Position numbers and translations under genes: made by a program. Positions 1-61,945 of a DNA stretch of 64,000 nt are shown here, piece after piece. The stretch is from Aplectana chamaeleonis (Eukaryota; Nematoda; Chromadorea; Rhabditida; Cosmocercidae): the NCBI GenBank assembly GCA_029168955.1, contig JAPDOI010000439.1, positions 434,001 through 498,000 on the forward strand, written 5' to 3'. Below the pieces are notes generated by a model that made no database searches, was not told the origin of the DNA, and saw nothing but the letters and a program-made list of their open reading frames with translations. Positions within the stretch are counted from its first letter, which is position 1. Each line of letters begins with the position of its first letter.

Positions 1-284
1 CAGGACATCATGGAACGTGTGCAGGACCGTAGTAGGAGTGGGCAGGACATCATGAAACGTGTGCAAGACCCCTGTAAGGATGAGCAGAACTTCGTGGAAT
101 GTGTGCAGGACATCAGTAGGAGTGTGCAGGACATCATGAAACGTGTGCAAGACCCCTGTAAGGATGAGCAGGACTTCATGGAATGTGTGCAGGAACCCAC
201 TAGGGGTGTGCAGCACGTCATGGAATGTGTGCTGGATCTCAGTAGGAGTGTGCAGGACCTCAGTTTAATGTTCAGGACACCGTA
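1..284 (+). repeat. 42-bp satellite, array A (cut by window start)
   Basis: Tandem units of about 42 bp begin at the window edge. Each unit is two related 21-bp halves starting GTGTGCAGGAC, the second ending in TCATGRAA. Units are more diverged than in the arrays at 4.2 kb and 53 kb, and some are partial. The array is open in one frame as a Q-D-rich peptide repeat, but that follows from the period and is not evidence of a gene. It ends where a palindromic repeat begins at about 305. Confidence 0.85.
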
Positions 285-304
285 TGCAAGCCAGGCCTCC
301 GAAT

Positions 305-642
305 CAACAAGAACGATAGTTAAGTCCGCCAGAACAGGGCTACCGTAATCTCACTCGAGTTGGCTCTAAAATTTTCCAAGTTCTGACTCCGAATTCGCTT
401 CATCTTCCCTACAGGTGGTGACGTTTTCCTGCTTTGTAGTCCAGGCAGATCCTCAACTGCTGACCTCTGGAGAAGGGCGGTGTGTGAATCAAGACACACC
501 GCTCTTCACTTCTTTTATACTTTACCCTTGGTCAATTTTGTATCATCCAATTTGTTTACGAGAGCCGAATAACATTATTCCTAAGATTACGGTAGCCCTC
601 TTCTGGCGCTCTTAACTATCGTTCTTGTTCCGAAACAGACAT
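305..642. repeat. Palindromic element with GGGCTACCGTAA arms
   Basis: The segment after AACAAGAACGATAGTTAAG (308-326) is matched in reverse complement by CTTAACTATCGTTCTTGTT near 613-631. Inside these, AGGGCTACCGTAATC (about 338) pairs with GATTACGGTAGCCCT (about 587-601). The same inner arm AGGGCTACCGTAA recurs in another palindrome inside the 42-bp array at 40.75-41.0 kb. No coding content is seen. Confidence 0.75.
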
Positions 643-1134
643 ATGGGCCGGCGCAGACGAGCCACATCAGCATGAACCGGTGAAGTTTGGCTAGAGCGGC
701 TGACCCTGGGTCTATCCTAGACGTGGTGGGGCCACACAAGATTTACTCATAGAAATGATGAAAAACTCTGATAAAAGATGCCTGATACTGGGCTATCAAT
801 CTTTGGTTTTACAAGAGCTCTATGGAAATTTTTTGACTGGTAGCCTTACCAATTGCCGGTTCATTTCATTTCTGTCTTGGTGCCCCTCCCCCCCCGCGTA
901 GGGTAGTGCCTGGACCCTGTACAATTGGGTCATTTTAAAATTCATTTCTTCATTTTTTCGACTTTTAAATTCAAAAAGTATATACCTTGTATGTATCTTA
1001 TTTGTAGGGAGCCGCGTTGCAACTATTATCTTGCAGTCTTAGCAGCGGAGCGGTTGTTTCTTCATTTCTACCACTATGTTTTCGAAAAAAAACAACTTGA
1101 CTTTTAGAGCTTGACGATATTGTAGAAAGGAAAC
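643..1134. other. Non-coding stretch with dispersed repeat pieces
   Basis: No gene is recognised. Bases 690-910 resemble 38945-39340 (shared CTATCCTAGACG, AAGATTTA.TCATAGAAATGA and a C-run before GTAGGGTAGT). Bases 1005-1090 resemble 26925-27005 (shared GCGGAGCGGTTGTTTC). These are dispersed repeat copies of unknown class. Confidence 0.55.
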
Positions 1135-1947
1135 ACTTGGAAAAAGTTGTGAAATTTCTGAAAGTTAGGCTCCGCAGAAAAGGTCAAGGATTTGGCATTG
1201 CTCTAAAATGTCGTGAAATTGTTCCATTGGATTTGGCTATCAAACTGATTTCCTGAATGTAGTGACATTATTGAATCGATTTGGCTGTTGTTGGTATATG
1301 CAGATAACATAATCATTAAATGTAGTGAAATTGTTGCAAACAGATTTGGCAGGAGCTCTATGAATTACCACAGTCAAATCACGCGCCAGAAGGGGTTTTG
1401 CTTAGAGCGCATATTGAATCAAATGAGAACAAGAATAAGTCCAGCAACAAAAACGTTTCCATACAATGTGAACCGTGAAAGCGTTGAGGACACGAAGACA
1501 TACCGCCAGTAGCGAATAAATTGCGTTAGATTTCTTTTTCATGATTTTTTATCTAATCGGTGAGGGAAGGTCTGGTACCTTAGTGGGAGCTACACTGAAA
1601 AGGCAGAATAATATTCGAAAACCTTATTTCTAGCCCATAAGGCCACGTTTCGTTCAGCATTGTTAATTGAGAAGTAGCTTTTTCCTTTTGTGTTTATTTG
1701 CTGGGCCAGAGGACCTTCTGACGCGTGATTTGACTGTGGTAATTCATAGAGCTCATGCCAAATCCGTTTGCAACAATTTCACTACATTTAATGATTATGT
1801 TATCTGCATATACCAACAACAGCCAAATCGATTCAATAATGTCACTACATTCAGGAAATCAGTTTGATAGCCAAATCCAATGGAACAATTTCACGACATT
1901 TTAGAGCAATGCCAAATCCTTGACCTTTTCAGCCTAACTTTCAGAAA
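1135..1947. repeat. Long palindromic element with GATTTGGC motifs
   Basis: Bases about 1150-1395 are repeated in reverse complement at about 1710-1945 (for example CGATTTGGCTGTTG near 1277 against CAACAGCCAAATCG near 1828). The left arm carries GATTTGGC about every 40-60 bp, a motif shared with the palindromes at 23.5, 34, 40 and 44 kb. The left arm contains a short insertion relative to the right. No coding content is recognised. Confidence 0.85.
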
Positions 1948-2211
1948 TATAAAACTGGTTTTTGGAAGTTAGTGAATCAAAATGACTGAGCGGTTGTAAT
2001 GAGTGACGAACAGAGAAGATGCGGAAGTGGAGCTGCTGCTTGTTTCGTCAGACTGGCGAGGAAGTGTCGCCAGAATTTCGCGTACTCCTCAAAACGCGTT
2101 GCACGCTTTTCAAGATAAAGGATTTCCTATTTGTTTTCTTCGCTACCCAAGGGCTAGGGTTTCGAAAGAAAAACTTACAAAATCTCGCTGTGTCAATTCT
2201 ACTTTCTTCAT

Positions 2212-3140
2212 GACGTCCTGCACACTTCCACTGCGGCCCTGCTAACTTTCTATGACGTCCTGCACATTCCCACCTGGGTCCTGAACACATTTCACGACTT
2301 ACTGCACACCCCTACTGGGGTACTGCACCCATTCCATGACGTCCTGCACATTCTTACTGGGGACCTGCGCACTTTCTATGATGTCCTGCACACTTCCATT
2401 CGGGTCCTGCACTCTCACACTGGGGTCCTGTACACTTTCTCTGACGTTCAACACACTCCCACTGAGGTCCTGCACACTTTCTATGACGTCCTGCACACTC
2501 CACTGTGGTCCTGCACACTTTCTACGACGTCCTGCACACTCCCATTTGGGTCCTGCACACTCCCACTGGGGCCCTACTCACTTTTTATGACGTCCTGCAC
2601 ACTCCCATTTGGGTCCTGCACACTTTCTACGACGTTCTGCACACTCCCACTGTTTTCCTACACACTTTCTATGACGTCCAGCACACTCCCATTTGGGTCC
2701 TGCACACTCCCACTAAGGTCCTGCACACTTTCTATGACGTTCTGCACACTCCCACTGGGGCCCTGCACACTTTCTATGACGTTCTGCACACTCCCACTGA
2801 CGTCCTGCACACTCCCACAGGGGTCCTGCACACTTTCTACGACGTTCTGCACACTTAAACTGTGGCCCTGCACACTTTTTGCGACGTCCTGCACACTCTC
2901 ACCGGGGTCCTGCACACTTTTTATGACGTCCTGTACACTCCTATTTGGGTCCTGCACACTTTCTATGAAGTCCTGCACACTCCCGCAGGGGTCCTGGCCA
3001 CTTTCTATGACGTTCTGCACATTCTCACTGGGGTCCTGCACACTTTTTATGACATCCTGTACACTCCTATATGGGTCCTGCACTCTCCCATTGAGGTCCT
3101 GCACACTATCGACAACGTCCTGCACACTCCTCAAACCCTG
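2212..3140 (-). repeat. 42-bp satellite, array B
   Basis: About 22 tandem units lie in minus orientation, read on + as GTCCTGCACACTCCCACTGG followed by a half ending TTTCTATGACGTCCTGCACAC. Both 21-bp halves share GTCCTGCACAC, so the 42-bp unit is a dimer of 21 bp. It forms the left arm of the foldback element at 1949-5132 and faces array C. Confidence 0.95.
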
Positions 3141-3857
3141 GCGGGTCTGAACGGCGTCCCATCCACCACTACTAAATACCTGTCGCCTTGATTAGGGCTT
3201 AGCCTTTCTAGCGCTACACGACTCACAGAAGTTTTCATGACCCAAGGCCAAAAGTGCGCCCCATGGACAAACTCGGTTGCCCCGAGGCGCGCAAGAGGTG
3301 ATTCAGGCTGATTTTTTGGTAATCGATGGATGTCCCACCCAGAGTCAAGCGGGGTTGCGAAATTTCGCAACGGGGGGTGAGGGGGGGTCGCAAAAATTTT
3401 GCCCGAGAAGATTACGGTAGATCGCAAAAGTTTCGGACCAAAAACGAAATTTCGGTGAAAATATCCTAACAATTCTCAATATTTTTGGTGACCGAAGGGA
3501 AGGATCGTAGCTTTGCTCGTGTTTCGGACGCTTGAGTCCGACCACTAAACAAATTTTCGGCGTCTGACAGTTTTGGTAATCGATTATATTGATTGCTTTG
3601 GTTTTCCGAACGACCAGATAATCCAAATGCAAAAAAGTTTTTTTTGGAAAAAATAAACTGCCCAAAAATCGCTCCTCGGAGGGATCGCAAAACTTTTGAA
3701 TTCTGGGAAGAAATTTTTGATGGTGGGAGGGGGGGTCGCTCGGATTCCGAAAAATTACGCGACGCCCCGCTTGACCCTGGTCCCACCCACCCAAATGTTT
3801 GTACCATTTCATCCCTGTTTTCATCGGCCGTTCCGGAGATCCGCATGGAAACGCAAT

Positions 3858-3955
3858 TACACACACACACACACACACACATACATCCTTATACTCAAAG
3901 CAGTTAGGTCCCGATGTTTGTATGTATGTATGTATGTATGTATGTATGTATGTGT
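3858..3955. repeat. Two microsatellites at the palindrome centre
   Basis: An (AC)n run at about 3858-3882 and a (TATG)n run at about 3917-3950 sit in the centre of the foldback element. They are separated by a short spacer reading CATCCTTATACTCAAAGCAG. Confidence 0.9.
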
Positions 3956-4235
3956 GTGTAATTGTGTTTTCCCGTGAATCTCCGGAATAGCCGATCAAAA
4001 CAGGGATGAAATGGTACCAACATTTGCGTGGGTGGGACACTCATCGATTACCAAAAATCAGCCTGAACCACCCCTTGCGCGCTTCGGGGCAACCGAGTTC
4101 GTCCGTGGGGCGCACTTTTGGCCTTGGGTCATGAAAACTTCTATGAGTCGTCTAGCGCTAAAAAGGCTAAGCTCTAATCAAGGCGAGACGTATTTAAAAG
4201 TGGTGGATGGGACGCCGTTCAGAACCGCCAGGGTT

Positions 4236-4868
4236 TGAGGAGTGTGCAGGACGTTATCGATAGTGTGCAGGACCTCAGTGGGAGTGTGCAGGACCCCAGT
4301 GAGAGTGAGCAGGACGTCAAAGAAAGTGTGCAGGACCCCAGTGGGAGTGAGCAGGACGTCATAGAAAGTGTGCAGAACCCCAGTGGGAGTGGACAGGACG
4401 TCATAGAAAGTGTGCAGGACCCCAGTGAGAGTGAGCAGGACGTCATAGAAAGTGTGCAGGACCCCAGTGGGAGTGAGCAGGACGTCATAGAAGGTGTGCA
4501 GGACCTTAGTGGGAGTGAGCAGGACGTCATACAAAGTGTACAGGACCCCAGTGTGAGTGAGCAGGACGTCGTGGAAAGTGTGCAGGACCCTAGTGGGAGT
4601 GTGCAGGACCCTAGTGGGAGTGTGCAGGACGTCGTACAAAGTGTGCAGGACCCCAGTGGGAGTGTGCAGGACCCCAACGGAAGTGTGCAGGACATCATAG
4701 AAAGTGCGCAGGTTCCCAGTAAGAATGTACAGGACGTCATGGAATGGGTGCAATACTACAGTAGGGGTGTACAGGACGTCGTGAAATGTGTTCAGGGCCC
4801 AGATGTGAATGGGCAGGACGTCATAGAAAGTTCGCAGGGCCTCAGTGGAAGTGTGCAGGACGTCATTA
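4236..4868 (+). repeat. 42-bp satellite, array C
   Basis: About 15 units lie in plus orientation, the mirror image of array B across the centre of the foldback element. Halves read GTGTGCAGGACCCCAGTGGG and AGCAGGACGTCATAGAAAG. One frame is open over 226 codons with a heptad-like peptide period (S-V-Q-D-P-S-G, S-V-Q-D-V-I-E). This is a consequence of the 21/42-bp period. Confidence 0.95.
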
Positions 4869-5132
4869 AGAGAGGAGAACTGAAACAGCGAGTTTTTGTC
4901 AATTTTTTCATGTGAAATCTTAGCCTTTGTGTAGCGAAGAAAACAGATATGAAATCATGTATCATAAGAAGCGTGCAGCGCGTTTTGAGGAGTACGCGAA
5001 ACTCTGGAGACACTTCCTCGCCAGTCTGACGAAACAAGCAGCAGCTCCACTTCCGCATCTTCTCTGTTCGTCACACATTACAACCGCTTAGTCATTTTGA
5101 TTCACTAACTTCCATAAACCAATTTTATATAT

Positions 5133-5587
5133 GTTGAAAGTCTGAGCTTATCAAAATCTGCTTCACAAAAACATAAACATCAACGGACATATTTCATTTA
5201 TTGAGAACAAAGGCATGGTGTTGGTCAACAAGGGAAACCACATCTAAAATGCGAGTGTTTTTTTCTTAACGAGACAGGGATGGTAAAGCGAGAATAATAG
5301 CTTGGGTACATTACAGATGGAAGGGGTCGTAAATAAGATGCCGGTAACAACCGACGATCTACCGCTGGCTTCTTATGTTTTGCTTTTTTTATGCCACGTT
5401 TTTTATACCCTACGCCCTGCTATAAATGTCCGGCAGCCAGTTCTGCTCAGGAGAGTCCATAGGGACAGCAACTTTCGGATATACGGAAGGCATTCAACAC
5501 CGTTTTGTCAGAATAATCTGTCTCAGGAAGCTAGCGGACATGAAATTTTTCTTGAGCGAAAACTTCGCTAGGTCTCGCTAGTATGAT
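5133..5587. other. No gene seen
   Basis: A-T-rich sequence with no recognised coding exon, RNA gene or repeat structure. Short open frames here show no family resemblance. Confidence 0.5.
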
Positions 5588-5957
5588 CTAGTTCCGCTAT
5601 CGCGTTCAGTCCGCAAAGTCTCATTATCACAATCGTAGAAGCGAAGCGGTTGTTTTGAGAATAATTCTAGTTCAATTTTTCAACAACAACCGCTTCGCTT
5701 CTACGATTGTGATAATGAGGACTGAACGCGATTGCGGAACTGAACTATATAGTGGAGTCCACCAAGAGTGTCTCAGTTACTTATCAATAGGAAGCGGTCG
5801 GCTGGGAATCAATGTGCATGAATCCCATACGAGCACGCTCGATACCGATTGAGCGAGAGCGGTTGTGCTCCAAAGAGTTTAATGTTCATTGATCCCCAGC
5901 CGACCGCTTCTTATTGATAAGTCAATGCGACACTTGGTGGACTCCGCTATACATACA
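5588..5957. repeat. Two adjoining palindromic MITE-like repeats
   Basis: The first palindrome (about 5588-5746) has arms meeting near 5665-5685, with GTAGAAGCGAAGCGGTTGTT against AACAACCGCTTCGCTTCTAC. The second (about 5748-5957) follows within a few bases, with GAAGCGGTCGGCTGGGAATC near 5791 against the reverse complement near 5895. Neither has coding capacity. Abutting small palindromes suggest one element inserted at the edge of another. Confidence 0.8.
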
Positions 5958-6127
5958 AACATCGGGACATAACTGCTTTAAGTATAAGGATTTCAAATTT
6001 CGTAAAGCGTAATTACGGTGAAACCACCGTAAATCGTAAACAGCAAATTGCAACAATAACTGCTAAAAAGTTATTATTGCTATTATGTTGAAAAGGAATT
6101 TGAATACTTTCTATCAATAAGCTATTT

Positions 6128-7860
6128 CGGGGGTTTATTGCCTTCTGAGCTGCAGATTTACAATAGCCATGATCTTATCTATTCGTCGTTTAGTAGTGGT
6201 ATTATTCCTGCTCGATGGAAACAAGCTCTTGTTCTCCCCATCCCCAAGCCTGGCAAACCAGAGGATAAAGCCACGTCACATCGTCCCATATCCCTATTAT
6301 CCCCTATCGCTAAGCTGGCGGAAAAAAATCATAAATCCGCATCTCCAAGGCGCACTACAGCAGAACGTCCATCAGCATGGCTTCAAGAAGGCGCACTCCA
6401 CCATCACCGCACTAACGTCAATTACTGAACACATCATCGCCGGTTTCAATAGGATAGCTCCCGCCGGCAGAAGTCTGGTCGTAGCAGTCGATTTGACTTC
6501 CGCTTTCGACAATGTCAGCACTTCATTGTTGTCAAAATCGATACTGGACTGTAATATGCCCGACTGGTGTAAACGATGGACTGACAACTTCGTCAAGAAC
6601 CGCTCCATACGTGTGAAGTTCGACGGACACTTGTCGAAGTCGGTTCCCCTGAAGGCAGGCGTTCCTCAAGGTGGAGTTTTGTCACCAAGCCTATTCTCTC
6701 TGTATCTATCCGATATTCCGAAGCCGCCACCCAACATCCATCTATGTCTGTATGCTGATGACATCACAATTGTATGTACAGACCCTGTTATCGACCGTGC
6801 CACTGCGGAGATGAACAAATACCTCTGCAGCCTGGCCAAGTTCCTCGAATCGAAGCAGCTAAAGGTCTCTCCTTCAAAGTCTAGTGTTACTCTGTGCACT
6901 ACTGCAACGGTTGAGCATCAACTGCATTCCGGGGTTCTCTGGGAAGGCAATCGGCTGCCCTTGTCTAAGCACCCTCGGCTACTTGGAGTCTTCCTAGACC
7001 CCTCACTGCGCTTTCACGAGAACACGCGCATTCGAGCCGCAACTGCTAACACGCGAAATAACATCCTCCGTGCTCTGGCGGGCACCACTTGGGGTAGCAC
7101 AAAGGAAGTTCTACGCACAACGTATAAGGCCATGATACAGCCTACTCAGGAGTATGGAGCTCCGATATGGACTAGACACCTGTCGGATGCCTCTTGGAGC
7201 AAGCTTCAACGTGTACAAAATACTGCACTACGTGTCATCACTGGCTGCCCAAAGTCTACACCTATATCCCACCTTCATCAAGAATGCGCCGTACTTCCTG
7301 TAAAACAGCACTGCCAACTGCAGTCGCAACAGTTTCACATTGGCATAGTCAAGAATGCCGCACATCCCAACTACCCACTCCTGTCATCTGATCCTCATCC
7401 CCGTAATATTCGCACACCGCTCCATATTGCTATTTCTACATTGGATCGTCAAAGATGGGCTACCTCTGAGCTCACAAGGAAGAGGCTGCAGCAAATTGAA
7501 CACACCAGATTCGTGTCTGAATACCTGTCCTGTGCCCTTCCAAATCCCATCCTTGGTACAGTGCCTCCTACGGTCGATGACAGCGAGAAGACTCTGCCCA
7601 GACGCTCCCGCGTCACTCTAGCGGGTCTACGTTGCGGTCACTCTTCGTACCTCAAAGCCTACGTACATAGGATCGACGAATCGGTCCCGGATAAATGTCC
7701 CGACTGTCAAAATACTGGTCATGATTCACTACATCTATTTTCATGCTCTGCCAGACCTACTTCTCTGCCTGCTCGTGATATGTGGAACAGGCCGTGTGAT
7801 GTGGCCACCTTTCTACGTCTATGAGAAGAAACTCCGATGTGGCTGATAAGAAGAAGAAGA
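6128..7860 (+). mobile_element. 5'-truncated non-LTR retrotransposon with RT
   Basis: This is the reverse-transcriptase half of a non-LTR retrotransposon. The RT begins at about 6138 with the P-I-P-K-P-G-K and R-P-I-S-L-L-S blocks. A shift of frame near the A7 run at 6325-6333 leads into the long frame ending at 7824. That frame has the V-P-Q-G-G-V-L-S-P block near 6663, the catalytic Y-A-D-D at about 6751-6762, and a C-terminal zinc-binding C-P-D-C...H...C segment at about 7696-7752. The endonuclease and ORF1 are absent, so this is a 5'-truncated copy, typical of target-primed reverse transcription. The 3' end is rich in AAGAAG. It is related to, but distinct from, the family at 14.5-19 kb and 27-32 kb, and shares its 3' end with the scrap at 47870-47968. 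Confidence 0.9.
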
Positions 7861-9849: not shown

Positions 9850-9857
9850 GTGCCGAT

Positions 9858-10788: not shown

Positions 10789-11665
10789 TATTAGGTTGTA
10801 ATGGAAGATTTTTTTGAATTTTTTTAATCTTTATTGCTTCACACATTAAATGCACAATATAATCACCATATGTAACTATCTACAACCTTACTCCATCTAA
10901 TAGGCAAGTCGCTGATTCCCTTTTCCCAGATCCCAGGAGTCTGTGCACCGAAGAAGTCAGCGACAGCCAGAACTACATAATCAAGTTTAGAATATTTTTT
11001 CTTGGCTAGGAACGGTTTGAGAGGGCGGAAAAAATGATAGTCAGAGGGAGCTAGATCAGGAGAATAGTTTGTGTGAGAGACCGTATCCCAGCCGAGCTCC
11101 GTTAGTTTGTCACGCGTGACATGAGAGATGTGCGGTCGAGCGTTATCATGCAGCAGGTGTACCGAAGTCTTTCTCAGCCGCTTTTCTCCTATTGCTTCCC
11201 TCAATCTCTGAAGTTGCTCACTGTAGTTTGTTGCGGTAACTGTCTGACCTTCCGGTAGTATCTCATAGAAAAGCATACCGCGGGAATCCCAGAAGCAACA
11301 AAGCAAAACCTTCTTGGGATGAAGGTCTGGTTTTGACTGAGTTGGCGGCTGTTCTCCTCGAGGAAGACTGCGAGCGTCTGCGTCGTATAGTATCCAACTC
11401 TCATCTCCAGTCATCACATCCTCCAGAAAGTCCTTCCTGTTGGAGCGGAGGAGAAAAAATATTCTAAACTTGATTATGTAGTTCTGGCTGTCGCTGACTT
11501 CTTCGGTGCACAGACTCCTGAGATCTGGGAAAAGGGAATCAGCGACTTGCCTATTAGATGGAGTAGGGTTGTAGATAGTTATGGTGATTACATTGTGGAT
11601 TGAATGTGTGAAGCAATAAAGATGAAACTTTTTTTGAATCTTCCAAGACTTATGTTGCAGCCTAT
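10789..11665 (-). mobile_element. Rearranged mariner element with transposase C-terminus
   Basis: The minus strand encodes the catalytic part of a Tc1/mariner transposase between about 11440 and 10865. Visible are T-G-D-E-S-W-I (first acidic residue), H-D-N-A-R-P-H (second) and Y-S-P-D-L-A-P-S-D-Y (third), followed by the usual hydrophobic tail. The N-terminal DNA-binding half is missing. In its place, 11455-11640 is an inverted copy of 10800-11000, so the C-terminal coding end and terminal region occur twice, head to head. The left terminus TTAGGTTGTAATGG (10791) and a right terminus near 11645-11664 resemble the common mariner end TTAGGTTG...CATAAGT. A TA precedes the left end. The copy cannot be active. 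Confidence 0.85.
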
Positions 11666-11667
11666 AT

Positions 11668-11720
11668 AAAACATAGAGAGTGCTACGCAGTACTACGTAA
11701 CACTCCCTATGTTTTGTACA
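11668..11720. repeat. Short perfect-stem hairpin
   Basis: AAAACATAGAGAGTG is matched by CACTCCCTATGTTTT about 20 bases downstream, giving a stem of about 15-18 bp. Flanking sequence GTGGCGTCG..GCGA.ATTCGC.GTCG occurs inverted on both sides of the mariner (10754-10780 and 11725-11755). Confidence 0.6.
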
Positions 11721-41030: not shown

Positions 41031-41039
41031 GTGCTTGTA

Positions 41040-43915: not shown

Positions 43916-44014
43916 AGATTACGGAAGATAACGACCGGAGAATCATGAAGGATCTTTTGTTTCTTTTTTTTCAAAGGGGACATTTGCTAAAATAAAATGA
44001 AATTTGTAACTGTT

Positions 44015-49339: not shown

Positions 49340-52300
49340 GACTCCAGAGTGCTCATTTGGCAGATAGCAGCGGGTACGAGTCCTCCAAGTATACCCTTTG
49401 ATATGATTGAGCATGATTCACCAAGTTCACGTAAGCGAATTTCGTACGATTTCGTTAATACATGTAGTATCTTGGATTTCCTTAAAGGCAGAGTTCACGA
49501 TGATTTTCGTCCCCGAGTTTTTCACATAAAACAATGCGTTGGTCTCCAAGTGTTACCGAAATTACGAAGAGAGTGCGAGAAACGCATTAAAACGTCGTAT
49601 TTCAGTGTTAATATTCCATGACAAGGACTAGTTGTCCGGTTGTATGAACATGTTCATGGTGGTTGTCACCGGTAGAAAATTGGGTCAGTCGAAAATATAA
49701 GAATATTTTATGCAAAGCAGGATTAGTTAGGGTCCTAAAGGAAGAACGGCACAATAGAGAGTAGGGAATTGCAAAGGAGGGGTCCACAAAAGATTTCCCT
49801 GTCACAACAAACCCTTCTTATGATACTTAAGAGGAGGGGTGATATTCAAGGATTTCGTGTACTTCTGGTACGTTTTTCTCGATTTCTACGTCATTTTAGT
49901 TCTACCCGGGGGCCACTCAATCAATTTAGCGAATAATCTCAAAATTGAAGATTATCGTGAAACTGCCTTTAATTTAGAATGCAATCCTTTGACAGTTTAT
50001 CGTCTTGGAAAACCGTCACGAGGCATGAATAGGTTGATTAAGGTTGTATTGCCGACTAAGACGTTTCAACGTATTGCTGTAGCGCGGGCCCGTCGACTCC
50101 GTTCCTACCCGGGGTTAAGGCTTTTCCTGCGGGAATCGCTAACCAAAGAGGAGTTGGAACGCAGACGACAGGAACGCATGAGTCGCAGAGTTGATACTGT
50201 TCGTGTCTCGCCTCCTGGCATAGTCCAGAATTCGGCATACACAAGCGAATCAAGAACGCAAGGTGACTCTTCTCTCGTTTCGAATCAGGAAAACTAGGTA
50301 GGCTTCCTCGGTATTTTTGTGGTTATTTGCAGTGTTTATACTGTAATGTAAGGTCCATCTCAAAAAACTCGGATTATGTCCCGCTCGTTCTTTCAAAAAA
50401 TTACGATATCTTGGCTTTCTCTGAAACTTGTCTTCCGTTTTGGGCAATATGATGTTGGATTATGATTTCTTGAGGTGTGACAGGCCTAGAAAATCTGGCG
50501 GTGGGGTTATTCTTCTTGTAAATCGCAGACTATCTTTTTCAACCGTTTTTGTGGAATCAGTTGAGAACTCGTACGAAATACTATAGGCCGATATTCTTTG
50601 CGAAGGTCACAAATTCAGGTTTATAGTGGTGTATAGAGCTCCCTCCTGCCTATCCGTAAAAACTGAGCAGCTAGTGAAAGTCTTGAGCGATTTAGTAGCT
50701 TGCTACGTGCATGCAGTTGTGGTAGGGGACTTCAACTTGCCTAATTTTAATGCTAGGGACACAAATTCTGAAAATTCGTCCCCACTTAGCGGGTTGGAAG
50801 AATTGGTTTCTTGCAACAATCTTTCTCAACATGTAACAGAACCGACGAGAGGTGTAAATATTCTTGATCTTGTGTTTTCGACCAGTGACAGCTTAATAAG
50901 GGATGTAAAAGTTTCGTCTCCTGTGGGATTAAGTGATCACAATAGCATTTTGTTGAAAATTCATAGTTGGGAAACCCCAGCCACACCAGTTCATCGTAGG
51001 ATTTACTCCAAATGTAATTTTGATGTGATTCGAGCAAGTTTGGCCGGAATACGATGGGTTGATTTGTTCGAAACAAAAAATAATGTGAATGAAAAATATG
51101 AGCTTTTCTTATCGGTTTTGCATGAAGCCATAGAGCTTCATGTTCCATTGGAAAAATGTGCGTCACTAAAGTCTGTAAAGCTGCCGCAGTATTTACAGAA
51201 TATGCTCGAGCATCGGAATTGTCTCTTTCACGAAGCCAGACGCACCAATGACTGGTCAAAATTTAGAGACTTTTCCTTGAAGTTTGAAAGTAGACTCAAA
51301 AAGTATAACAGCTCCTTAGAAAAAAGGATGGTTGAATCTAGAAACAAGCAGCATTTTTATAAATACCTGAATGGGAAAATCAGGGAGAAAAGACTTCTAG
51401 GTTGCCTGAGTCATAATGGAACTCTCGTAACTACTGCATATGAACAGGCCAATTTACTAGCGAATCGATTTGTCAATTCTTTCCAAGAAGACGATGGATC
51501 CTGCACATCTTTCACGGGATCTAAAGTAGAGAGAATGGGGGATTTCCCATGGTTTGAAGCCACGAAGCTTTTTGAGCTTAACACCTGACTTTTTACCACT
51601 TTTCTTCATTCAAAAGTTAGGTTATCTATTACGTGGTCCTCTTGCATACATTTTCAATCAATCACTCATGCATGGTGAGGTTCCTCTACGATGGAAACAC
51701 TCTTTTGTCACTCCCATTCTGAAAAAGGAGCCGTCCTGTAATCCCGATAACTATCGTCCTGTGAGTATAACTTCTCTCTTGTGCAGACTTTCTGAGAAAG
51801 TTTTGAAACATCACATAATGGAATATCTATTAGATCGGAAAATCATAACAGAGCATCAGCATGGGTTCATTAGTGGCAGATCAGTAGAAACAAACCTGCT
51901 AGAGTGTTTGGACGATTGGACAGTTGCACTCGACAACAAACTTGGCTGTGATGTAGTTTTCTTCGATTTTGAGGAAGCCTTTGATCAAGTATCACACAAA
52001 AAGTTGCTATTCAAATTAGAGAACTTGCAGTTCCACCCTGTTGTCTTCAAATGGATAGCTGAGTATCTCAGCGACAAAACTTTCCAAGTAAAGCTAGGTG
52101 AGATCTATTCTGATACCAAGGCCATTGCAAGTGGAGTACCTCAGGGAGGTGTCTTGTCACCAATTCTTTTCATCATTTTTACGGCTGACTTACCCGAATC
52201 GTTCAAGGTCTAGGGGTCAAAGTCAAAATGTACGCAGATGATGTCAAAATGTATAATGTCATTTCTGATCCAGAGGATTCCGTCAACCTACAAAACTCCA

Positions 52301-53200
52301 TAGATTCGCTTGTGAAATGGACTGAAAAATGGCAGTTGCCTTTGTCTCCGCAAAAGACTACTTTTATGCAGCTAAAATCTCACCCACGCTCAACTGTTAC
52401 TTCGTACTCAGTGGATGGCGAAACCATTTCTGCTGTTGATTCCGCGAAAGATCTTGGTTTTCATTATAATGACAAACTTGATTTCACTGCGCATATCAAA
52501 GTTCGATGTAATCAAGCTAAACTGAGAACGTTTCACATTTTCAAAGGTCTTTGCAGCAGGAACAAGTCTGTTCTACTTCGGGCATACAAAACGTATGTTC
52601 CCCACTCTTAGAAGCCAGTGTTACAGTATTCAATCCTCCATCGAAGAGAGACATTCATGCTATTGAAAAAGTACAAAACAATTTCACACGTAAACTTCTC
52701 ACACGAGTAGGTGGATTTTTGTACGAAAGAATCCCAAGCGCCTCTATAAGGAATAGATACTTGAATCTGCCTTCGCTCAGGTCCCGGCGTAGAGTATTTG
52801 ACGTATGCAATGTTCATAACTGGATTTACAACCATAAAATGCTAAACATGAAACGTCTGTTCAATTTAAATTCCTCTCGGACGAGAGGAAACTCGTTCAA
52901 AATTGTTTTACGCGGACCAAGAACCAGTTTGTATGCCAACTCCTTCAAATACAGAGCTGGCAGGTCATACTCCGACATCACAAAAAATATGCCTCCAGGG
53001 CTGCCATTGAGTAGTAAGTAAAGCACGTGCTAAAAAGATCCTGTTGGATTTTGAAACCTAGTTTTTCGAGATGAGCCGCTGCTTCTGCTTTCATGATTAT
53101 GAGCATATGTTGGAGCATTTCTGTTACAGTTGATCCTCGTTATAATTTTTTTCTCACATTTGCCTTTAGCGGTTGTAATAAACTTATAAACTTATATAAG
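49340..53200 (+). mobile_element. Two-ORF non-LTR retrotransposon D, degenerate
   Basis: ORF1 (about 49349-50297) carries the conserved V-Y-R-L-G-K-P segment and R-L-I-K-V-V-L-P, typical of nematode CR1/Jockey-like first ORFs. It is split by a TTAA MITE. ORF2 starts near 50340. Decayed endonuclease follows with I-L-A-F-S-E-T, V-V-G-D-F-N-L-P (about 50715) and G-L-S-D-H-N (about 50935). A linker leads to RT with N-Y-R-P-V-S-I-T-S near 51750, V-P-Q-G-G-V-L-S-P near 52135 and M-Y-A-D-D near 52230. The C-terminus V-Q-N-N-F-T-R-K-L (52675) ends at 53023. Frameshifts occur near 51585, 52200 and 52605. The 3' tail near 53170-53200 repeats AATAAACTTATAAACTTATA. Confidence 0.9.
49486..49968. mobile_element. 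TTAA-flanked MITE, copy 2, inside ORF1
   Basis: Inverted ends AGGCAGAGTTCACGATGAT and ATTATCGTGAAACTGCCT, with TTAA at 49482-49485 and 49969-49972. Removing it with one TTAA joins I-L-D-F-L to N-L-E-C-N-P in a single ORF1 frame. This shows both the insertion and its 4-bp target duplication. Confidence 0.88.
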
Positions 53201-53284
53201 ACACTAAATTAGACTGATTGATTTGTGGGAGGGTCACTCATAATAAACGGCTAGGAGTTGACCGGTGGCCTGCGACCGGTGGCC

Positions 53285-56200
53285 GCAGAATGTATGGGAC
53301 CCAACTGAAAGTGCGCCGAGCGACGGAGGAAGTGTACGGAACCCAACTGAAAGTGCGCTGAGCGACGGAGGAAGTGTACGGGACCTAACTGAAAGTGCGC
53401 TGAGCGACGGAGGAAGTGTACGGGACCCAACTGAAAGTGCGCCGAGCGTCAAAGGAAGTGTACGGAACCCAACTGAAAGTGCACTGAGCGCCGGAGGAAG
53501 TGTACGGGACCCAACTGAAAGTGCGCCGAGCGTCAAAGGAAGTGTACGGAACCCAACTGAAAGTGCGCCGAGCGCCGGAGGAAGTGAACGGGACCCAACT
53601 AGGAGTGCGCCGAGCGCTGGGGAAGTGTACGGGACCCAGCTAGGGGTGCGCCAGGCGCCAGAGAAAGTTTGTGGAACCCAACTGAGGATGCGCCAAGCGC
53701 CGGGTAAAGTGTGCGGGACACAAGTGGGAATGCGCCAGGCGCCGCGAAAAGTGTGTGGGACCGAACTGGAGGTGCGCCAAGCGCCGCGAAAAGTGTGTGG
53801 GACCCAATAGAAGGCGCCAAGCACCGGGTAAAGTGTGTGGGACCCAAGTGGGAGTGCGCCAGGCGCCGGGAAAAGTGTGTGGGACCGAACTGGAGGTGCG
53901 CCAGGCGCCGCGAAAAGTGTGTGGGACCCAACAGAGAGTGCGCCAAGCACCGGGTAAAGTGTGTGGGACCCAAGCGGGAGTGCGCCAGGCGCCGCGGAAA
54001 GTGTGTGGAACCGAACTGGAGGTGCGCCAGGCGCCGCGAATAGTGTGTGGCACCCAACAGAGAGTGCGCCAAGCACCGGGTAAAGTGTGTGGGACCCAAG
54101 TGGGAGTGCGCCAGGCGCCGGGGAAAGTGTGTGGGACCGAACTGGAGGTGCGCCAGGCGCCGCGAAAAGTGCGGGACCCAACTAAGGGAGCGCCAAGCGC
54201 CAGGGAAAGTGTACGGGACCCAACTGCGAGTGCGCTGAGCGCCGGGGAAAGTGTGTGGGACCCGGATGGGGTGCGCCGAGACCCGCGGAAAGTGTGTGGG
54301 ACCGAGGTGGGAGTGCCCCAGGCGCCGGGGAAAGTGTGTGGGACCGAACTGGAGGTGCGCCAGGCGCCGCGAATAGTGTGTGGGACCCAACACAGAGTGC
54401 GCCAAGCACCGGGTAAAGTGTGTGGGACCCAAGTGGGAGTGCGCCAGGCGCCGGAGAAAGTGGGTGGGACCGAACTGGAGGTGCGCCAGGCGCCGCGAAA
54501 AGTGTGTGGGACCCAACAGAGAGTGCGCCAAGCACCGGGTAAAGTGTGTGGGACCCAAGTGGGAGTGCGCCAGGCGCCGGGGAAAGTGTGTGGGACCTAA
54601 CACAGAGTGGGCCAAGCACCGGGTAAAGTGTGTGGGACCCAAGTGGGAGTGCGCCATGCGCCGGGGAAAGTTTGTGGGACCCAACTGAGAATGCGCTAAG
54701 CGCCAGGAAAAGTGTATGGGACCAAAGTGCGAGTGCGCTGAGCGCCGATGAAAGTGTGTGGGACCCGAATGGGGTGCGCCGAGACCCGCGGAAAGTGTGT
54801 GGGACCGAAGTGGGAGTGCCCCAGGCGCCGGGGAAAGTGTTTGGGACCCAACAGAGAGTGCGCCAAGCACCGGGTAAAATGTGTGGGACCCAAGTGGGAG
54901 TGCGCCAGGCGCCGCGAAAAGTGTGTGGGACACACCAGAGTGCGCCAAGCACCGCGAAAAGTGTGTGTGACCCAACAGAGAGTGCGCCAAGCACCGGGTA
55001 AAGTGTGTGGGACCCAAGTGGGAGTGCGCCAGGCGACGGGGAAAGTGTGTGGGACCGAACTGGAGGTGCGCCAGGCGCCGCGAATAGTGTGTGGGACCCA
55101 ACACAGAGTGCGCCAAGCACCGGGTAAAGTGTGTGGGACCCAAGTGGGAGTGCGCCAGGCGCCGGAGAAAGTGTGTGGGACCGAACTGGAGGTGCGCCAG
55201 GCGCCGCGAATAGTGTGTGGGACCCAACACAGAGTGCGCCAAGCACCGGGTAAAGTGTGTGGGACCCAAGTGGGAGTGCGCCAGGCGCCGGAGAAAGTGG
55301 GTGGGACCGAACTGGAGGTGCGCCAGGCGCCGCGAAAAGTGTGTGGGACCCAACAGAGAGTGCGCCAGCACCGGGTAAAGTGTGTGGGACCCAAGTGGGA
55401 GTGCGCCAGGCGCCGGGGAAAGTGTGTGGGACCCAACAGAGAGTGGGCCAAGCACCGGGTAAAGTGTGTGGGACCCAAGTGGGAGTGCGCCAGGCGCCGC
55501 GAAAAGTGTGTGGGACCCAACAGAGAGTGCGCCAAGCACCGGGTAAAGTGTGTGGGACCTAAGTGGGAGTGCGCCAGCCGCCGGGGAAAGTGTGTGGGAC
55601 CCAACACAGAGTGGGCCAAGCACCGGGTAAAGTGTGTGGGACCCAAGTGGGAGTGCGCCAGGCGCCGCGGAAAGTGTGTGGGACCGAAGTGGGAGTGCCC
55701 CAGGCGCCGGGGAAAGTGTTTCGGACCCAACAGAGAGTGCGCCAAGCACCGGGTAAAATGTGTGGGACCCAAGTGGGAGTGCGCCAGGCGCCGCGAAAAG
55801 TGTGTGGGACACACCAGAGTGCGCCAAGCACCGCGAAAAGTGTGTGTGACCCAACAGAGAGTGCGCCAAGCACCGGGTAAAGTGTGTGGGACCCAAGTGG
55901 GAGTGCGCCAGCCGCCGGGGAAAGTGTGTGGGACCCAAGTGGGAGTGCGCCAGGCGCCGCGAAAAGTGTGTGGGACCCAACAGAGAGTGCGCCAAGCACC
56001 GGGTAAAGTGTGTGGGACCCAAGTGGGAGTGCGCTGAGCGCCGGGGAAAGTGTGTGGGACCCGAATGGGGTGCGCCGAGACCCGCGGAAAGTGTGTGGGA
56101 CCGAAGTGGGAGTGCCCCAGGCGCCGGGGAAAGTGTTTGGGACCCAACAGAGAGTGCGCCAAGCACCGGGTAAAATGTGTGGGACCCAAGTGGGAGTGCG

Positions 56201-59200
56201 CCAGGCGCCGCGAAAAGTGTGTGGGACACACCAGAGTGCGCCAAGCACCGCGAAAAGTGTGTGTGACCCAACAGAGAGTGCGCCAAGCACCGGGTAAAGT
56301 GTGTGGGACCCAAGTGGGAGTGCGCCAGGCGACGGGGAAAGTGTGTGGGACCGAACTGGAGGTGCGCCAGGCGCCGCGAATAGTGTGTGGGACCCAACAC
56401 AGAGTGCGCCAAGCACCGGGTAAAGTGTGTGGGACCCAAGTGGGAGTGCGCCAGGCGCCGCGAAAAGTGTGTGGGACCGAACTGGAGGTGCGCCAGGCGC
56501 CGCGAATAGTGTGTGGGACCCAACAGAGAGTGCGCCAAGCACCGGGTAAAGTGTGTGGGACCCAGAGTGGGAGTGCGCCAGGCGCCGGAGAAAGTGGGTG
56601 GGACCGAACTGGAGGTGCGCCAGGCGCCGCGAAAAAGTGTGTGGGACCCAACAGAGTTGCGCCAGCACCGGGTAAAGTGTGTGGGACCCAAGTGGGAGTG
56701 CGCCAGGCGCCGGGGAAAGTGTGTGGGACCCAACAGAGAGTGGGCCAAGCACCGGGTAAAGTGTGTGGGACCCAAGTGGGAGTGCGCCAGGCGCCGCGAA
56801 AAGTGTGTGGGACCCAACAGAGAGTGCGCCAAGCACCGGGTAAAGTGTGTGGGACCCAAGTGGGAGTGCGCCAGGCGCCGGGGAAAGTGTGTGGGAACCA
56901 ACACAGAGTGGGCCAAGCACCGGGTAAAGTGTGTGGGACCCAAGTGGGAGTGCGCCAGGCGCCGGGGAAAGTGTGTGGGACCGAAGTGGGAGTGCCCCAG
57001 GCGCCGGGGAAAGTGTTTGGGACCCAACAGAGAGTGCGCCAAGCACCGGGTAAAATGTGTGGGACCCAAGTGGGAGTGCGCCAGGCGCCGCGAAAAGTGT
57101 GTGGGACCCAACAGAGTGCGCCAAGCACCGCGAAAAGTGTGTGGGACCCAACAGAGAGTGCGCCAAGCACAGGGTAAAGTGTGTGGGACCCAAGTGGGAG
57201 TGCGCCAGGCGCCGGAGAAAGTGTGTGGGACCGAACTGGAGGTGCGCCAGGCGCCGCGAATAGTGTGTGGGACCCAACACAGAGTGCGCCAAGCACCGGG
57301 TAAAGTGTGTGGGACCCAAGTGGGAGTGCGCCAGGCGCCGGAGAAAGTGGGTGGGACCGAACTGGAGGTGCGCCAGGCGCCGCGAAAAGTGTGTGGGACC
57401 CAACAGAGAGTGCGCCAGCACCGGGTAAAGTGTGTGGGACCCAAGTGGGAGTGCGCCAGGCGCCGGGGAAAGTGTGTGGGACCCAACAGAGAGTGGGCCA
57501 AGCACCGGGTAAAGTGTGTGGGACCCAAGTGGGAGTGCGCCAGGCGCCGCGAAAAGTGTGTGGGACCCAACAGAGAGTGCGCCAAGCACCGGGTAAAGTG
57601 TGTGGGACCTAAGTGGGAGTGCGCCAGCCGCCGGGGAAAGTGTGTGGGACCCAACACAGAGTGGGCCAAGCACCGGGTAAAGTGTGTGGGACCCAAGTGG
57701 GAGTGCGCCAGGCGCCGGGGAAAGTGTGTGGGACCGAAGTGGGAGTGCCCCAGGCGCCGGGGAAAGTGTTTGGGACCCAACAGAGAGTGCGCCAAGCACC
57801 GGGTAAAATGTGTGGGACCCAAGTGGGAGTGCGCCAGGCGCCGCGAAAAGTGTGTGGGACACACCAGAGTGCGCCAAGCACCGCGAAAAGTGTGTGTGAC
57901 CCAACAGAGAGTGCGCCAAGCACCGGGTAAAGTGTGTGGGACCCAAGTGGGAGTGCGCCAGGCGCCGGAGAAAGTGTGTGGGACCGAACTGGAGGTGCGC
58001 CAGGCGCCGCGAATAGTGTGTGGGACCCAACACAGAGTGCGCCAAGCACCGGGTAAAGTGTGTGGGACCCAAGTGGGAGTGCGCCAGGCGACGGGGAAAG
58101 TGTGTGGGACCGAACTGGAGGTGCGCCAGGCGCCGCGAATAGTGTGTGGGACCCAACACAGAGTGCGCCAAGCACCGGGTAAAATGTGTGGGACCCAAGT
58201 GGGAGTGCGCCAGGCGCCGGAGAAAGTGTGTGGGACCGAACTGGAGGTGCGCCAGGCGCCGCGAATAGTGTGTGGGACCCAACACAGAGTGCGCCAAGCA
58301 CCGGGTAAAGTGTGTGGGACCCAAGTGGGAGTGCGCCAGGCGCCGGAGAAAGTGGGTGGGACCGAACTGGAGGTGCGCCAGGCGCCGCGAAAAGTGTGTG
58401 GGACCCAACAGAGAGTGCGCCAGCACCGGGTAAAGTGTGTGGGACCCAAGTGGGAGTGCGCCAGGCGCCGGGGAAAGTGTGTGGGACCCAACAGAGAGTG
58501 GGCCAAGCACCGGGTAAAGTGTGTGGGACCCAAGTGGGAGTGCGCCAGGCGCCGCAAAAAGTGTGTGGGACCCAACAGAGAGTGCGCCAAGCACCGGGTA
58601 AAGTGTGTGGGACCTAAGTGGGAGTGCGCCAGCCGCCGGGGAAAGTGTGTGGGACCCAACACAGAGTGGGCCAAGCACCGGGTAAAGTGTGTGGGACCCA
58701 AGTGGGAGTGCGCCAGGCGCCGCGAAAAGTGTGTGGGACACACCAGAGTGCGCCAAGCACCGCGAAAAGTGTGTGTGACCCAACAGAGAGTGCGCCAAGC
58801 ACCGGGTAAAGTGTGTGGGACCCAAGTGGGAGTGCGCCAGGCGCCGGAGAAAGTGTGTGGGACCGAACTGCGAATGCACTGAGCGCCGGGGAAAGTGTGT
58901 GGGACCCGAATGGGGTGCGCCGAGACCCGCGGAAAGTGTGTGGGACCGAAGTGGGAGTGCCCCAGGCGCCGGGGAAAGTGTGTGGGACCCAACAGAGAGT
59001 GCGCCAAGCACCGGGTAAAGTGTGTGGGACCCAAGTGGGAGTGCGCCAGGCGCCGCGAAAAGTGTGTGGGACCCAACAGAGAGTGCGCCAAGCACCGGGT
59101 AAAGTGTGTGGGACCCAAGTGGGAGTGCGCCAGGCGACGGGGAAAGTGTGTGGGACCGAACTGGAGGTGCGCCAGGCGCCGCGAATAGTGTGTGGGACCC

Positions 59201-61945
59201 AACACAGAGTGCGCCAAGCACCGGGTAAAGTGTGTGGGACCCAAGTGGGAGTGCGCCAGGCGCCGGAGAAAGTGTGTGGGACCGAACTGGAGGTGCGCCA
59301 GGCGCCGCGAAAAGTGTGTGGGACCCAACAGAGAGTGCGCCAAGCACCGGGTAAAGTGTGTGGGACCCAAGTGGGAGTGCGCCAGGCGCCGGGGAAAGTG
59401 TGTGGGACCCAACAGAGAGTGGGCCAAGCACCGGGTAAAGTGTGTGGGACCCAAGTGGGAGTGCGCCAGGCGCCAGAGAAAGTGTGTGGGACCCAACAGA
59501 GAGTGCGCCAAGCACCGGGTAAAATGTGTGGGACCCAAAAGGGAGTGCGCCAAGCACCGGGGAAAGTGTGCGTGGCCCAATTAGGGTACGCCGAGCGCGG
59601 GGGAAGGTGTGTGGGACCCGACTGGGGGTGCGCCAGGCGCCGGGGAAAGTTGGTGGGACCCAAATAGGGGTGCGCCAGGCGCCGCGAAAAGTGTGTGGGA
59701 CCCAACAGAGAGTGCGCCAAGCACCGGGTAAAATGTGTGGGACCCAAGTGGGAGTGCGCCAGGCGCCGCGAAAAGTGTGTGGGACCCAACAGAGTGCGCC
59801 TAGCACCGCGAAAAGTGTGTGGGACCCAACAGAGAGTGCGCCAAGCACAGGGTAAAAGTGTGGGACCCAAGTGGGAGTGCGCCAGGCGCCGGAGAAAGTG
59901 TGTGGGACCGAACTGGAGGTGCGCCAGGCGCCGCGAAGTGGGAGTGCGCCAGGCGCCGGGGAAAGTGTGTGGGACCTAACACAGAGTGGGCCAAGCACCG
60001 GGTAAAGTGTGTGGGACCCAAGTGGGAGTGCGCCAGGCGCCGGGGAAAGTGTGTGGGACCGAACTGGAGGTGCACCAGGCGCCGCGAAAAGTGTGTGGGA
60101 CCCAACAGAGTACGCCAAGCACCGGGTAAAGTGTGTGGGACCCAAGTGGGAGTGCGCCAGGCGCCGGAGAAAGTGTGTGGGACCGAACTGGAGGTGCGCC
60201 AGGCGCCGCGAAAAGTGTGTGGGACCCAACAGAGAGTGCGCCAAGCACCGGGTAAAGTGTGTGGGACCCAAGTGGGAGTGCGCCAGGCGCCGGAGAAAGT
60301 GGGTGGGACCGAACTGGAGGTGCGCCAGGCGCCGCGAAAAGTGTGTGGGACCCAACAGAGAGTGCGCCAAGCACCGGGTAAAGTGTGTGGGACCCAAGTG
60401 GGAGTGCGCCAGGCGCCGGGGAAAGTGTGTGGGACGCAACAGAGAGTGGGCCAAGCACCGGGTAACGTGTGTGGGACCCAAGTGGGAGTGCGCCAGGCGC
60501 CGGGGAAAGTGTGTGGGACGCAACAGAGAGTGGGCCAAGCACCGGGTAACGTGTGTGGGACCCAAGTGGGAGTGCGCCAGGCGCCGGGGAAAGTGTGTGG
60601 GACCTAACACAGAGTGGGCCAAGCACCGGGTAAAGTGTGTGGGACCCAAGTGGGAGTGCGCCAGGCGCCGGGGAAAGTGTGTGGGACCGAACTGGAGGTG
60701 CACCAGGCGCCGCGAAAAGTGTACGGGACCCAACAGAGTGCGCCAAGCACCGCGAAAAGTGTGTGGGACCCAAGTGGGAATGCGCCAGGCGCCGGAGAAA
60801 GTGTGTCGGACCGAACTGCGAATGCACTGAGCGCCGGGGAAGTGTGTGGGACCCAACTGGGGTGCGCCGAGCGACGCGGAAAGTGTGTGGGACCCAACTG
60901 GGTATGCGCCAAGCGCCAGGGAAAGTGTACGGCATCTAACTGGGGATGCGCCAAGCACCGGGTGAAATGTGTGGGACCCAAGTGGGAGTGCGCCAGGCGC
61001 CGCGAATTGTGTGTGGGACCCAACAGAGAGTGCGGCAAGCACCGGGTAAAGTGTGTGGGACCCAAGTGGGAGTGCGCCAGGCGCCGGAGAAAGTGTGTGG
61101 GACCGAACTGGAGGTGCGCCAGGCGCCGCGAAAAGTGTGTGGGACCCAACAGAGAGTGCGCCAAGCACCGGGTAAAGTGTGTGGGACCCAAGTGGGAGTG
61201 CGCCAGGCGCCGGGGAAAGTGTGTGGGACCCAACAGAGAGTGCGCCAAGCACCGGGTAAAATGTGTGGGACCTAACTGAAGGTGCGCCAAGCGCCGGAGG
61301 AAGTGTACGGGACCTAACTAGGAGTGCGCCGAGCGACGGGGAAGTGTGTGGGACCCAAGTGGGAGTGCGCCAGGCGCCGCGAAAAGTGTGTGGGACTCAA
61401 CAGAGTACGCCAAGCACCGGGGAAAGTGTGTGGGACCCAAGTGGGAGTGCGTCAGGCACCGGGAAAAGTGTGTGGGACCCAAGTGGGAGTGCGCCATGCG
61501 TCGGGGAAAGTTTGTGGGACCGAACTGGAAGTGCGCCAGGCGCCGCGAAAAGTGTGTGGGACCCAACAGAGAGTGCGCCAAGCACCTGGTAAAGTGTGTG
61601 GGACCCAAGTGGGAGTGCGCCAGGCGCCGGGGAAAGTGTGTGGGACCGAACTGGAGGTGCGCCAAGCACCGGGTAAAATGTGTGGGACCCGAGTGGGAGT
61701 GCGCCAGGCGCCGCGAAAAGTGTGTGGGACCCAACAGAGTGCGCCAAGCACCGGGTAAAGTGTGTGGGACCCAAGTGGGAGTGCGCCAGGCGCCGGGGAA
61801 AGTGTGTGGGACCCAACTTGGGGTGCGCCAGGCGCCGCGAAGAGTGTATGGGACACAACTGAGGGTGCGCCATGCGTCGGGGAAAGTTTGTGGGACCCAA
61901 CTGGGGGCGCGCCAGGCGCCGGGGAAATGTGCGAGATTGGACTGG
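53285..61945 (+). repeat. 42-bp satellite, array F (about 200 units)
   Basis: An 8.7-kb array of 42-bp units built on GTGTGTGGGACCCAAGTGGG with second halves of GTGCGCCAGGCGCCGGGGAA type. Three main variants (CCCAAGTGGGAG; CCGAACTGGAGG; CCCAACAGAGAG, the last with AAGCACCGGGT) alternate in recurrent order, and the whole pattern recurs at about 1.0 and 2.05 kb. Edge units (53285-53640 and near 61280-61340) are more diverged, with GTGTACGGGACC. Many frames are open, the longest 1993 codons on the minus strand (53599-59580), because the period is a multiple of three and stops are rare. Confidence 0.97.

Follow-up and report, generated by a model that had tools for sequence, protein, structure and literature searches.

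The window analyzed here, a 64,000-nucleotide stretch of the genome of the nematode Aplectana chamaeleonis (assembly GCA_029168955.1, contig JAPDOI010000439.1, positions 434,001 to 498,000), contains six arrays, A to F, of a 42-bp (2 x 21 bp) tandem repeat. These arrays very probably lie, as internal tandem repeats, within non-autonomous Helitron-type (rolling-circle) transposons, which fall into three terminal families: I (arrays B and C; 5'-TC...CTAG), II (A, D, and E; 5'-TTYCTGAAAG or TTTGTAACTG...hairpin-CACCACAA), and III (array F; 5'-TC...hairpin-CTTG). All six are placed between element ends, which is not the arrangement of a classical satellite. An earlier reading of the window from its letters alone (the sequence-only reading) had described a free-standing satellite series and had not seen the hosts, and in this respect it has to be replaced. 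Our searches covered the source assembly (1.0366 Gb, 2087 contigs), from which the stretches designated L001–L043 were fetched.

Tandem Repeats Finder (TRF) recovered arrays of 42-bp period at all six sites, and the autocorrelation peaks at 42 for B, C, D, E, and F (0.70–0.85); for array A the highest lags are 84, 126, and 42. In each of the 15 array pairs, the consensus units are identical at 29–42 of the 42 positions, compared with maxima of 24–27 in 2000 shuffles per pair, in which the observed value was never reached, and a shuffled window scanned with the consensus gave no hits. In every pair the arrays thus group better than shuffled sequence, the comparison that the sequence-only reading had itself called for, and its claim that the six arrays form one superfamily with a common 42-bp unit holds. 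In a common orientation, the consensus of B and C is AGTGTGCAGGACGTCATAGAA/AGTGTGCAGGACCCCAGTGGG, from which that of A departs at three positions, while D, E, and F have AGTGCGTCGGACGCCGTAGAA/AATGTGTGGGACCCAAATAAG, AGTGCGCAGGACGCCGTAGAA/AGTGTGTGGGACCCATATGGG, and AGTGCGCCAGGCGCCGGGGAA/AGTGTGTGGGACCCAACTGGG, respectively. Invariant over these five consensus units are the columns AGTG.G...G.C..C...GAAA.TGTG..GGACCC...T..G. Rfam returned no match at gathering scores.

The six places first reported are also correct, but the extent of A and the make-up of D are not. Array A (1–284) is the last part of an array of 5.7 kb, most of which lies outside the window and which begins ~5.45 kb to its left (L009 4543–9994). 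The tract reported as D (40655–42825) consists of two blocks, namely B-type units at 40635–40739 and D proper at 41036–42836, separated by a ~295-bp non-satellite spacer (40740–41035), and of the 19 further D-type stretches that were fetched, 15 can be aligned over this arrangement. Within F, units of 84 and 126 bp match better than 42 bp according to TRF; the plain autocorrelation at 42, 84, and 126 does not rise (0.74, 0.71, and 0.67). Exact 200-bp repeats lie up to 5.8 kb apart in this array, which suggests recent long exchanges. A coding reading of the long frames through F was uninformative, because all six frames of the F consensus are free of stops.

Helitrons canonically begin with 5' TC, end in CTRR after a short hairpin, and insert between A and T without target duplication. 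Family I has both canonical ends. Its 5' TC start, TCCTTATACT.., occurs in the window and in the four stretches fetched with the C core (L029–L032), each of which has a C-like start, TCCTTATACTTAAAGCAG-(TATG)n, and a single arm. Its 3' end is CTAG, with a hairpin, AGCGAAAACTTCGCT, that finishes 12 bp before the element end; the sequence ..GGTCTCGCTAG followed by T agrees in the window, L032, and L009, and is altered in L031. Both L031 and L032 reach the 3' end (..CTAG); in L029 the array fills the rest of the stretch, whereas in L030 the 3' module breaks off close to where a family II element begins. Genome-wide, exact family I 3' ends have T next in 633 + 633 = 1266 cases (equal strand counts as output by the search) and another base in 6 + 3 = 9, and a reversed-pattern control gave 0. 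Counting A-preceded ends only, there are 561 + 532 = 1093 family I 5' ends in the genome, and A precedes seven of the eight that were fetched. When 96 of 100 listed 5' ends (of 1093; contigs C1–C19) were used for pairing, 58 of 100 listed 3' ends (of 1266) had a same-strand 5' end at most 8 kb upstream, compared with 4 having an opposite-strand 5' end within that distance. The paired spans measure 1.5–5.9 kb, with a median of 2.7 kb.

Family II is represented by three elements in the window: D, the older E in the opposite orientation, and A. Twenty 10-kb stretches were fetched for this family, 19 of them at further D-type matches and one to the left of the window. The D element is dispersed, in the order palindrome, B-type units, 295-bp spacer, array, and 3' module; the region 5' of the array (~1.15 kb) is common to 15 of the 19 stretches and the 3' module (~0.58 kb) to 17, and in most of the non-aligning ones the array runs past the stretch edge. 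D-type ends are sharp, with A before TTCCTGAAAG...GCGCTTCGCGCTCACCACAA and T after it. Of the exact ends in the fetched loci, the 15 outer 5' ends all come after A, and the 21 3' ends are all followed by T; these counts omit L018 and L021, whose 5' ends are altered, and 11 inner palindrome ends, which likewise come after A. Exact D-type 3' ends number 1429 + 1412 = 2841 with T next and 27 + 17 = 44 with another base genome-wide; this count covers the D-type hairpin only, so that ends with a somewhat different hairpin, such as those of A and E, lie outside it, and it does not give the number of arrays, because the D-type 3' end also occurs in satellite-free relatives (35594 and 62523). Empty sites were examined for family II, by comparing the joined flanks of 12 copies with all fetched sequence. 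Three copies (L013, L014, and L022) match an uninterrupted paralogue, all three sites are free of target duplication, and those of L013 and L022 read A^T. The A-element itself is inserted within the 3' module of B and splits that Helitron: the missing part of B continues from L009:3691 and terminates in CTAG, and comparison of this site with C reveals no duplication.

The D copies also show how the arrays behave. Their 3' modules are 96.8–98.8% identical to that of the window copy in 17 of 18 hits (89% in the remaining one), and their arrays range in length from 0.8 to 7.5 kb, some being clipped by the stretch. Homogenization of D units by locus is not seen, the identity being 0.874 within arrays versus 0.871 between loci. 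Exact blocks common to loci are mostly 100–250 bp, compared with 60–126 bp when the unit order is shuffled. Since the units are alike across loci and the loci have long blocks in common, the arrays appear to have been copied whole and then to have changed length.

In family III, the F-element is almost entirely array plus ends. The right flank of array F is repeated in the genome to ~62054, and in some copies to 62069 (at least 40 places); in all four fetched copies, taken from the best of the 40 listed, an F-type array lies directly upstream of the same ~110-bp 3' module. The fetched copies have the hairpin ACGCCGCGAAGCGGCGT and the end GTGCACCTTG followed by T, the next base being T in five of five copies (window included), and exact ends of this kind, counted only where T follows, amount to 313 + 289 = 602 in the genome. 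On the 5' side, TCATACATAATAATAAACGGCTAAGAGTTGACCGG is common, with small changes, to L042 and L043, and in part to L040 and the window. The 5' TC reads TCATACATAATAAT in L042 and L043, where it is preceded by A, and has a near form in the window.

Across the three families, T follows 1266 of 1275 ends in family I, 2841 of 2885 in family II, and five of five copies in family III, in agreement with insertion between A and T. The arrays furthermore have a constant orientation inside their elements: 22 of 22 are on the minus strand of the element in family II, and seven of seven and five of five on the plus strand in families I and III. Arrays were counted here by an assignable end (E by module homology), array pieces with fewer than five scan hits were dropped, and L012 and L025 (3' end outside the stretch) as well as the short loci L001–L008 were omitted. 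These data bear directly on the view that the unit is a free satellite superfamily, dispersed and homogenized by itself, with transposon ends nearby by chance. Arrays as long as F (8.6 kb) with a common unit would suit it, as would the many dispersed satellites of holocentric nematodes described in the consulted passages of PMC5765664, and six fetched arrays have no assigned end (L010 8050, L016 7, L019 1056, L022 278, L028 6628, and L030 12). However, ends, side, and orientation are identical in every assignable case within each of the three families, and the D-type stretches have in common the long 5' and 3' regions given above. These facts contradict the free-satellite view for A–F in the window and make it very unlikely.

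Besides these six arrays, several observations weigh against Helitron-type hosts. One of the eight fetched family I 5' ends (L029) is preceded by C, and 42 of the 100 listed family I 3' ends lack an exact 5' end nearby. Family II elements start with TTCC, TTTC, or TTTG rather than strictly with TC, and families II (CACAA) and III (CTTG) have hairpins but no canonical CTRR 3' end. The empty sites of L013 and L022 are one and the same L029 stretch, the paralogues of L014 have A, not T, to the right of the junction, and the 5' end of the window F-element (53234 or 53238) follows G or C. Finally, the parts scanned at six of the ~36 places with a Rep match (L033/L037, L034, L035, L036, L038, and L039) revealed no autonomous element bearing these ends, the sole trace of which is a weak match with seven edits in L037. 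On the supporting side, the Rep domain Helitron_like_N (PF14214) has 42 matches at these ~36 places in the genome, several of them in open frames of more than 1000 aa; for the best-scoring match (L037), proteins of Nippostrongylus brasiliensis are closest (67–71%), followed by those of hookworms and Haemonchus (55–58%), a pattern suggestive of a strongylid nematode host.

The inverted pairs B/C and D/E deserve separate consideration, as they could be the tandem-repeat arms of long inverted repeats in foldback elements like Drosophila FB, Tetris, and nematode Tm1. We first adopted this model for B and C, which form an inverted repeat over ~3.2 kb with unique arms of 89–92% identity, 1937–2855 pairing with 5141–4241 and 3141–3341 with 4228–4029. 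The units at their outer edges are positional homologues (0.913 at offset 0 versus at most 0.774 elsewhere), with a weak counterpart at the inner edge (0.826 versus 0.798). A similarity between the inner flanks of D and E is likewise real (score 54, 0/300 shuffles); the remaining inner and outer flank pairs gave nothing clear (C–F inner 4/300, C–D outer 16/300 shuffles). The model was dropped on the evidence of single-armed copies and dispersed D elements. The four other copies fetched with the C core are single-armed with a 5' TC end of their own, and two also reach CTAG. Moreover, C is nested in the microsatellite of B, as can be told from the 5' end of B (5951–5990), which sits beyond C. 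D and E represent a D-element nested in a related, older element of the other orientation, where a terminal-inverted-repeat (TIR) transposon (~39849–43457) carrying the D-element separates the 3' module of E from its array, and the inner flanks are similar because the two nested elements have a common 3' module. No duplication of 8–10 bp is present at the family II empty sites. Nested insertions of Helitron-type elements therefore explain both apparent inverted pairs, and we give the foldback model next to no credence.

A different question is whether family II is Helentron/HINE proper, and not a variant of Helitrons. Such an assignment is possible, although we consider it doubtful. It would account for the 3' stem-loop near the end, the internal tandem repeats, the missing target duplication, the T-rich right flank, and an 8-bp subterminal inverted motif (GATTTGGC/GCCAAATC), which in the window copy lies at base 34 of the 5' end and 26 bp from the 3' end. 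However, the family II junctions read A^T and not T^T, unlike the TT target, and the 8-bp repeat, the only pair of this kind seen in the window copy, where no systematic search aimed at longer ones was made, is shorter than the 11 bp reported for Helentron families in the passages at hand (PMC4067079).

The age of the dimer is a further point on which the sequence-only reading can be judged, as it had arranged the arrays in a series from 21-bp monomer to homogenized dimer. It was right that the two halves of the unit are more alike in A–C (14, 15, and 15 of 21 positions for A, B, and C) than in D–F (11, 11, and 9 for D, E, and F). An ancestor of 21 bp is also plausible from the 9–15 positions that the halves keep in common, but A–C are already 42-bp dimers. 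Half types alternate in these arrays too, same-type neighbors making up 2/12 in A, 6/43 in B, and 3/29 in C, next to 0/84 in D, 0/15 in E, and 1/413 in F. First halves are nearer to the first halves of other arrays than to their own second halves (F1–D1 16/21, F1–F2 9/21). The nearest relative of a half-unit in another array group is of the same half type in 0.93–1.00 of cases for D, E, and F, and in 0.68–0.85 for B and C; for A the values are 0.50 (two first halves) and 1.00 (six second halves). Because half-units group by half type across arrays in this manner, the 42-bp dimer predates the split of the arrays, and there is therefore no series from monomer to dimer. The less diverged halves of A–C may instead allow these arrays to exchange in 21-bp steps, which would not make them a series of ancestors.

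The following model could account for these properties. Helitrons of the same genome would supply the Rep/helicase proteins that move the elements in trans by rolling-circle transposition, each jump taking the whole array to a new place. There, the array would lengthen or shrink by slippage or unequal exchange in a 42-bp register, and in A–C possibly also in a 21-bp register. Because the unit runs one way in family II and the other way in families I and III, it would have entered at least two of the families separately or have been inverted once. One may go further and regard the 2 x 21-bp unit as a module exchanged among rolling-circle families whose ends are unrelated, which keeps a fixed orientation in each and is perhaps useful to the transposon rather than passive cargo, but we think this unlikely; if it were so, the array, its period equal to two helical turns, would perhaps serve to bind a protein or to stall replication.

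The element parts are collected in Table 1.

Table 1. Parts of the rolling-circle elements in the window and their continuation in locus L009
Feature	Coordinates	Strand	Content
A-element (family II), right (5') part	1–1947	-	5' end at 1947, TTTCTGAAAG after A on the - strand
A-element, inner parts			X1 palindrome ~1154–1947, spacer-like module ~300–637, array A 1–284
A-element, remainder	left of window		5.45 kb of array A, 3' end ..CACCACAA at ~L009:3690
B Helitron (family I)	1948–3885	-	3' module 1948–2200, array B 2201–3140, inner region, microsatellite
B Helitron, rest of 3' module			ends ..CTAG at ~L009:3240
B Helitron, 5' end remnant	5951–5990	-	TCCTTATACTTAAAGCAG on the - strand; detached by insertion of C into the B microsatellite
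C Helitron (family I), complete	3886–5581	+	5' TCCTTATACTCAAAGCAG, (TATG)n, inner region
C Helitron, inner parts			array C 4236–4868 (+), 3' module, hairpin 5555–5569, end GGTCTCGCTAG before T
E-element (family II), 3' module	39431–39848	-	71% identical to the D 3' module
D-element (family II), complete	39883–43400	+	5' TTCCTGAAAG, 680-bp palindrome, B-type units 40635–40739 (-)
D-element, rest			spacer 40740–41035, array D 41036–42836 (-), 3' module 42821–43400, hairpin 43376–43396, end CACCACAA before T
E-element, 5' part	43458–44644	-	3' module start 43458–43567, 5' palindrome 44002–44644
Array E	43568–43915	+ on window, - in element	
F-element (family III)	53234–62053	+	5' TC (53234, or 53238), short GACCGKT repeats
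F-element, rest			array F ~53285–61940 (+), ~110-bp 3' module, hairpin 62023–62039, end GTGCACCTTG before T

Several further features were observed in and around these elements. The core of the B Helitron contains an insert at 3339–3785 with TCCCACCCA on either side (possibly a 9-bp duplication) and the ends GAGTCAAGCGGGG...CCCCGCTTGACCC. The spacer module found next to D (40740–41035) and A (~300–637) has the ends AGGGCTACCGTAA...TTACGGTAGCCCT and a TATA-like stretch. At L019 3080–8495, a D array and the 295-bp spacer are jointly repeated several times inside one element, with a period of ~1.2–1.4 kb, and at L009 3660–3760 the 3' end of the A-element and its flank form a short inverted duplication at the insertion site. 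A family II element of L009 also contains F-type units. Relatives of this family, recognized by their matching 5' palindromes, lie at 23491–25115, 34048–35594, and 62523–64000; their visible parts contain no 42-bp satellite, the 3' end CACCACAA is found at 35594 and 62523, and the first of the three contains 119-bp repeats. Directly upstream of the F-element, 49990–53200 holds the remains of a non-long-terminal-repeat retrotransposon (endonuclease and reverse transcriptase matches). Matches to reverse transcriptase, endonuclease, and DDE transposase (Transposase_1) occur at 6121–7821, 10866–11804, 13529–14047, 17428–18300, 27030–27875, and 30582–31619. Two other tandem arrays, at 15487–15974 and 29661–30341, have periods of 76/227 and 109 bp and no visible relation to the 42-bp unit.

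Satellites carried by Helitrons are already known; the new point is that one unit occurs in three terminal families. According to the consulted excerpts of the papers cited in this paragraph, the C. elegans elements Helitron1_CE and HelitronY4_CE contain satellites, with tandem units of ~15–40 bp in complete and partial Helitrons (PMC9918286). The likeness to our elements extends to the nematode host, whereas the 42-bp (2 x 21) unit, the arrays of many kb, and the occurrence of one unit in three terminal families, with an orientation set for each, distinguish the latter. HINE elements of the oyster Crassostrea gigas carry Cg170-type satellites in a layout of left part with a mostly 4-base microsatellite, array, and right part with a 3' palindrome (PMC7492417), and family I follows the same order (5' end, (TATG)n, ~290 bp, array, and 3' module). 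Like the elements described here, those of the oyster show no target duplication and have related satellite subfamilies in related elements (PMC7492417), but oyster HINEs have a TT target preference and subterminal inverted repeats (subTIRs) of 11–12 bp (PMC7492417), while family I has TC/CTAG ends followed by T. DINE-1/Helentron elements are likewise non-autonomous rolling-circle elements with a 3' stem-loop, central tandem repeats, and an unmodified target, and differ in their TT target and longer subTIRs (PMC4067079). Among other transposons, Tetris/TIR-220 of Drosophila virilis similarly seeds kb-size satellite arrays from its own internal tandem repeats (PMC4079207); it is a foldback element with 8–10 bp duplications (PMC4079207), which the elements described here are not. 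The Mutator/foldback element Tm1 of root-knot nematodes resembles them in its nematode host and in having short tandem units within its ends (PMC3169594), and differs in that these are mostly 14-bp units in inverted ends, with 9-bp duplications (PMC3169594). In searches of one open-access library we saw no paper on this unit or on a single satellite shared by three Helitron families; as evidence of absence, this is weak.

Our results imply that what appears to be a satellite superfamily can spread across a 1-Gb genome as the cargo of transposons, whose exact ends, hundreds to thousands in number, serve as anchors. They also call for caution, because inverted pairs and ancestral series read from a single window may be nested insertions. 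The combination of ~98% identical 3' modules with a roughly ninefold range of array lengths would permit the growth of the arrays to be dated copy by copy, and the presence of one unit in three families makes the exchange of satellites between transposons testable.

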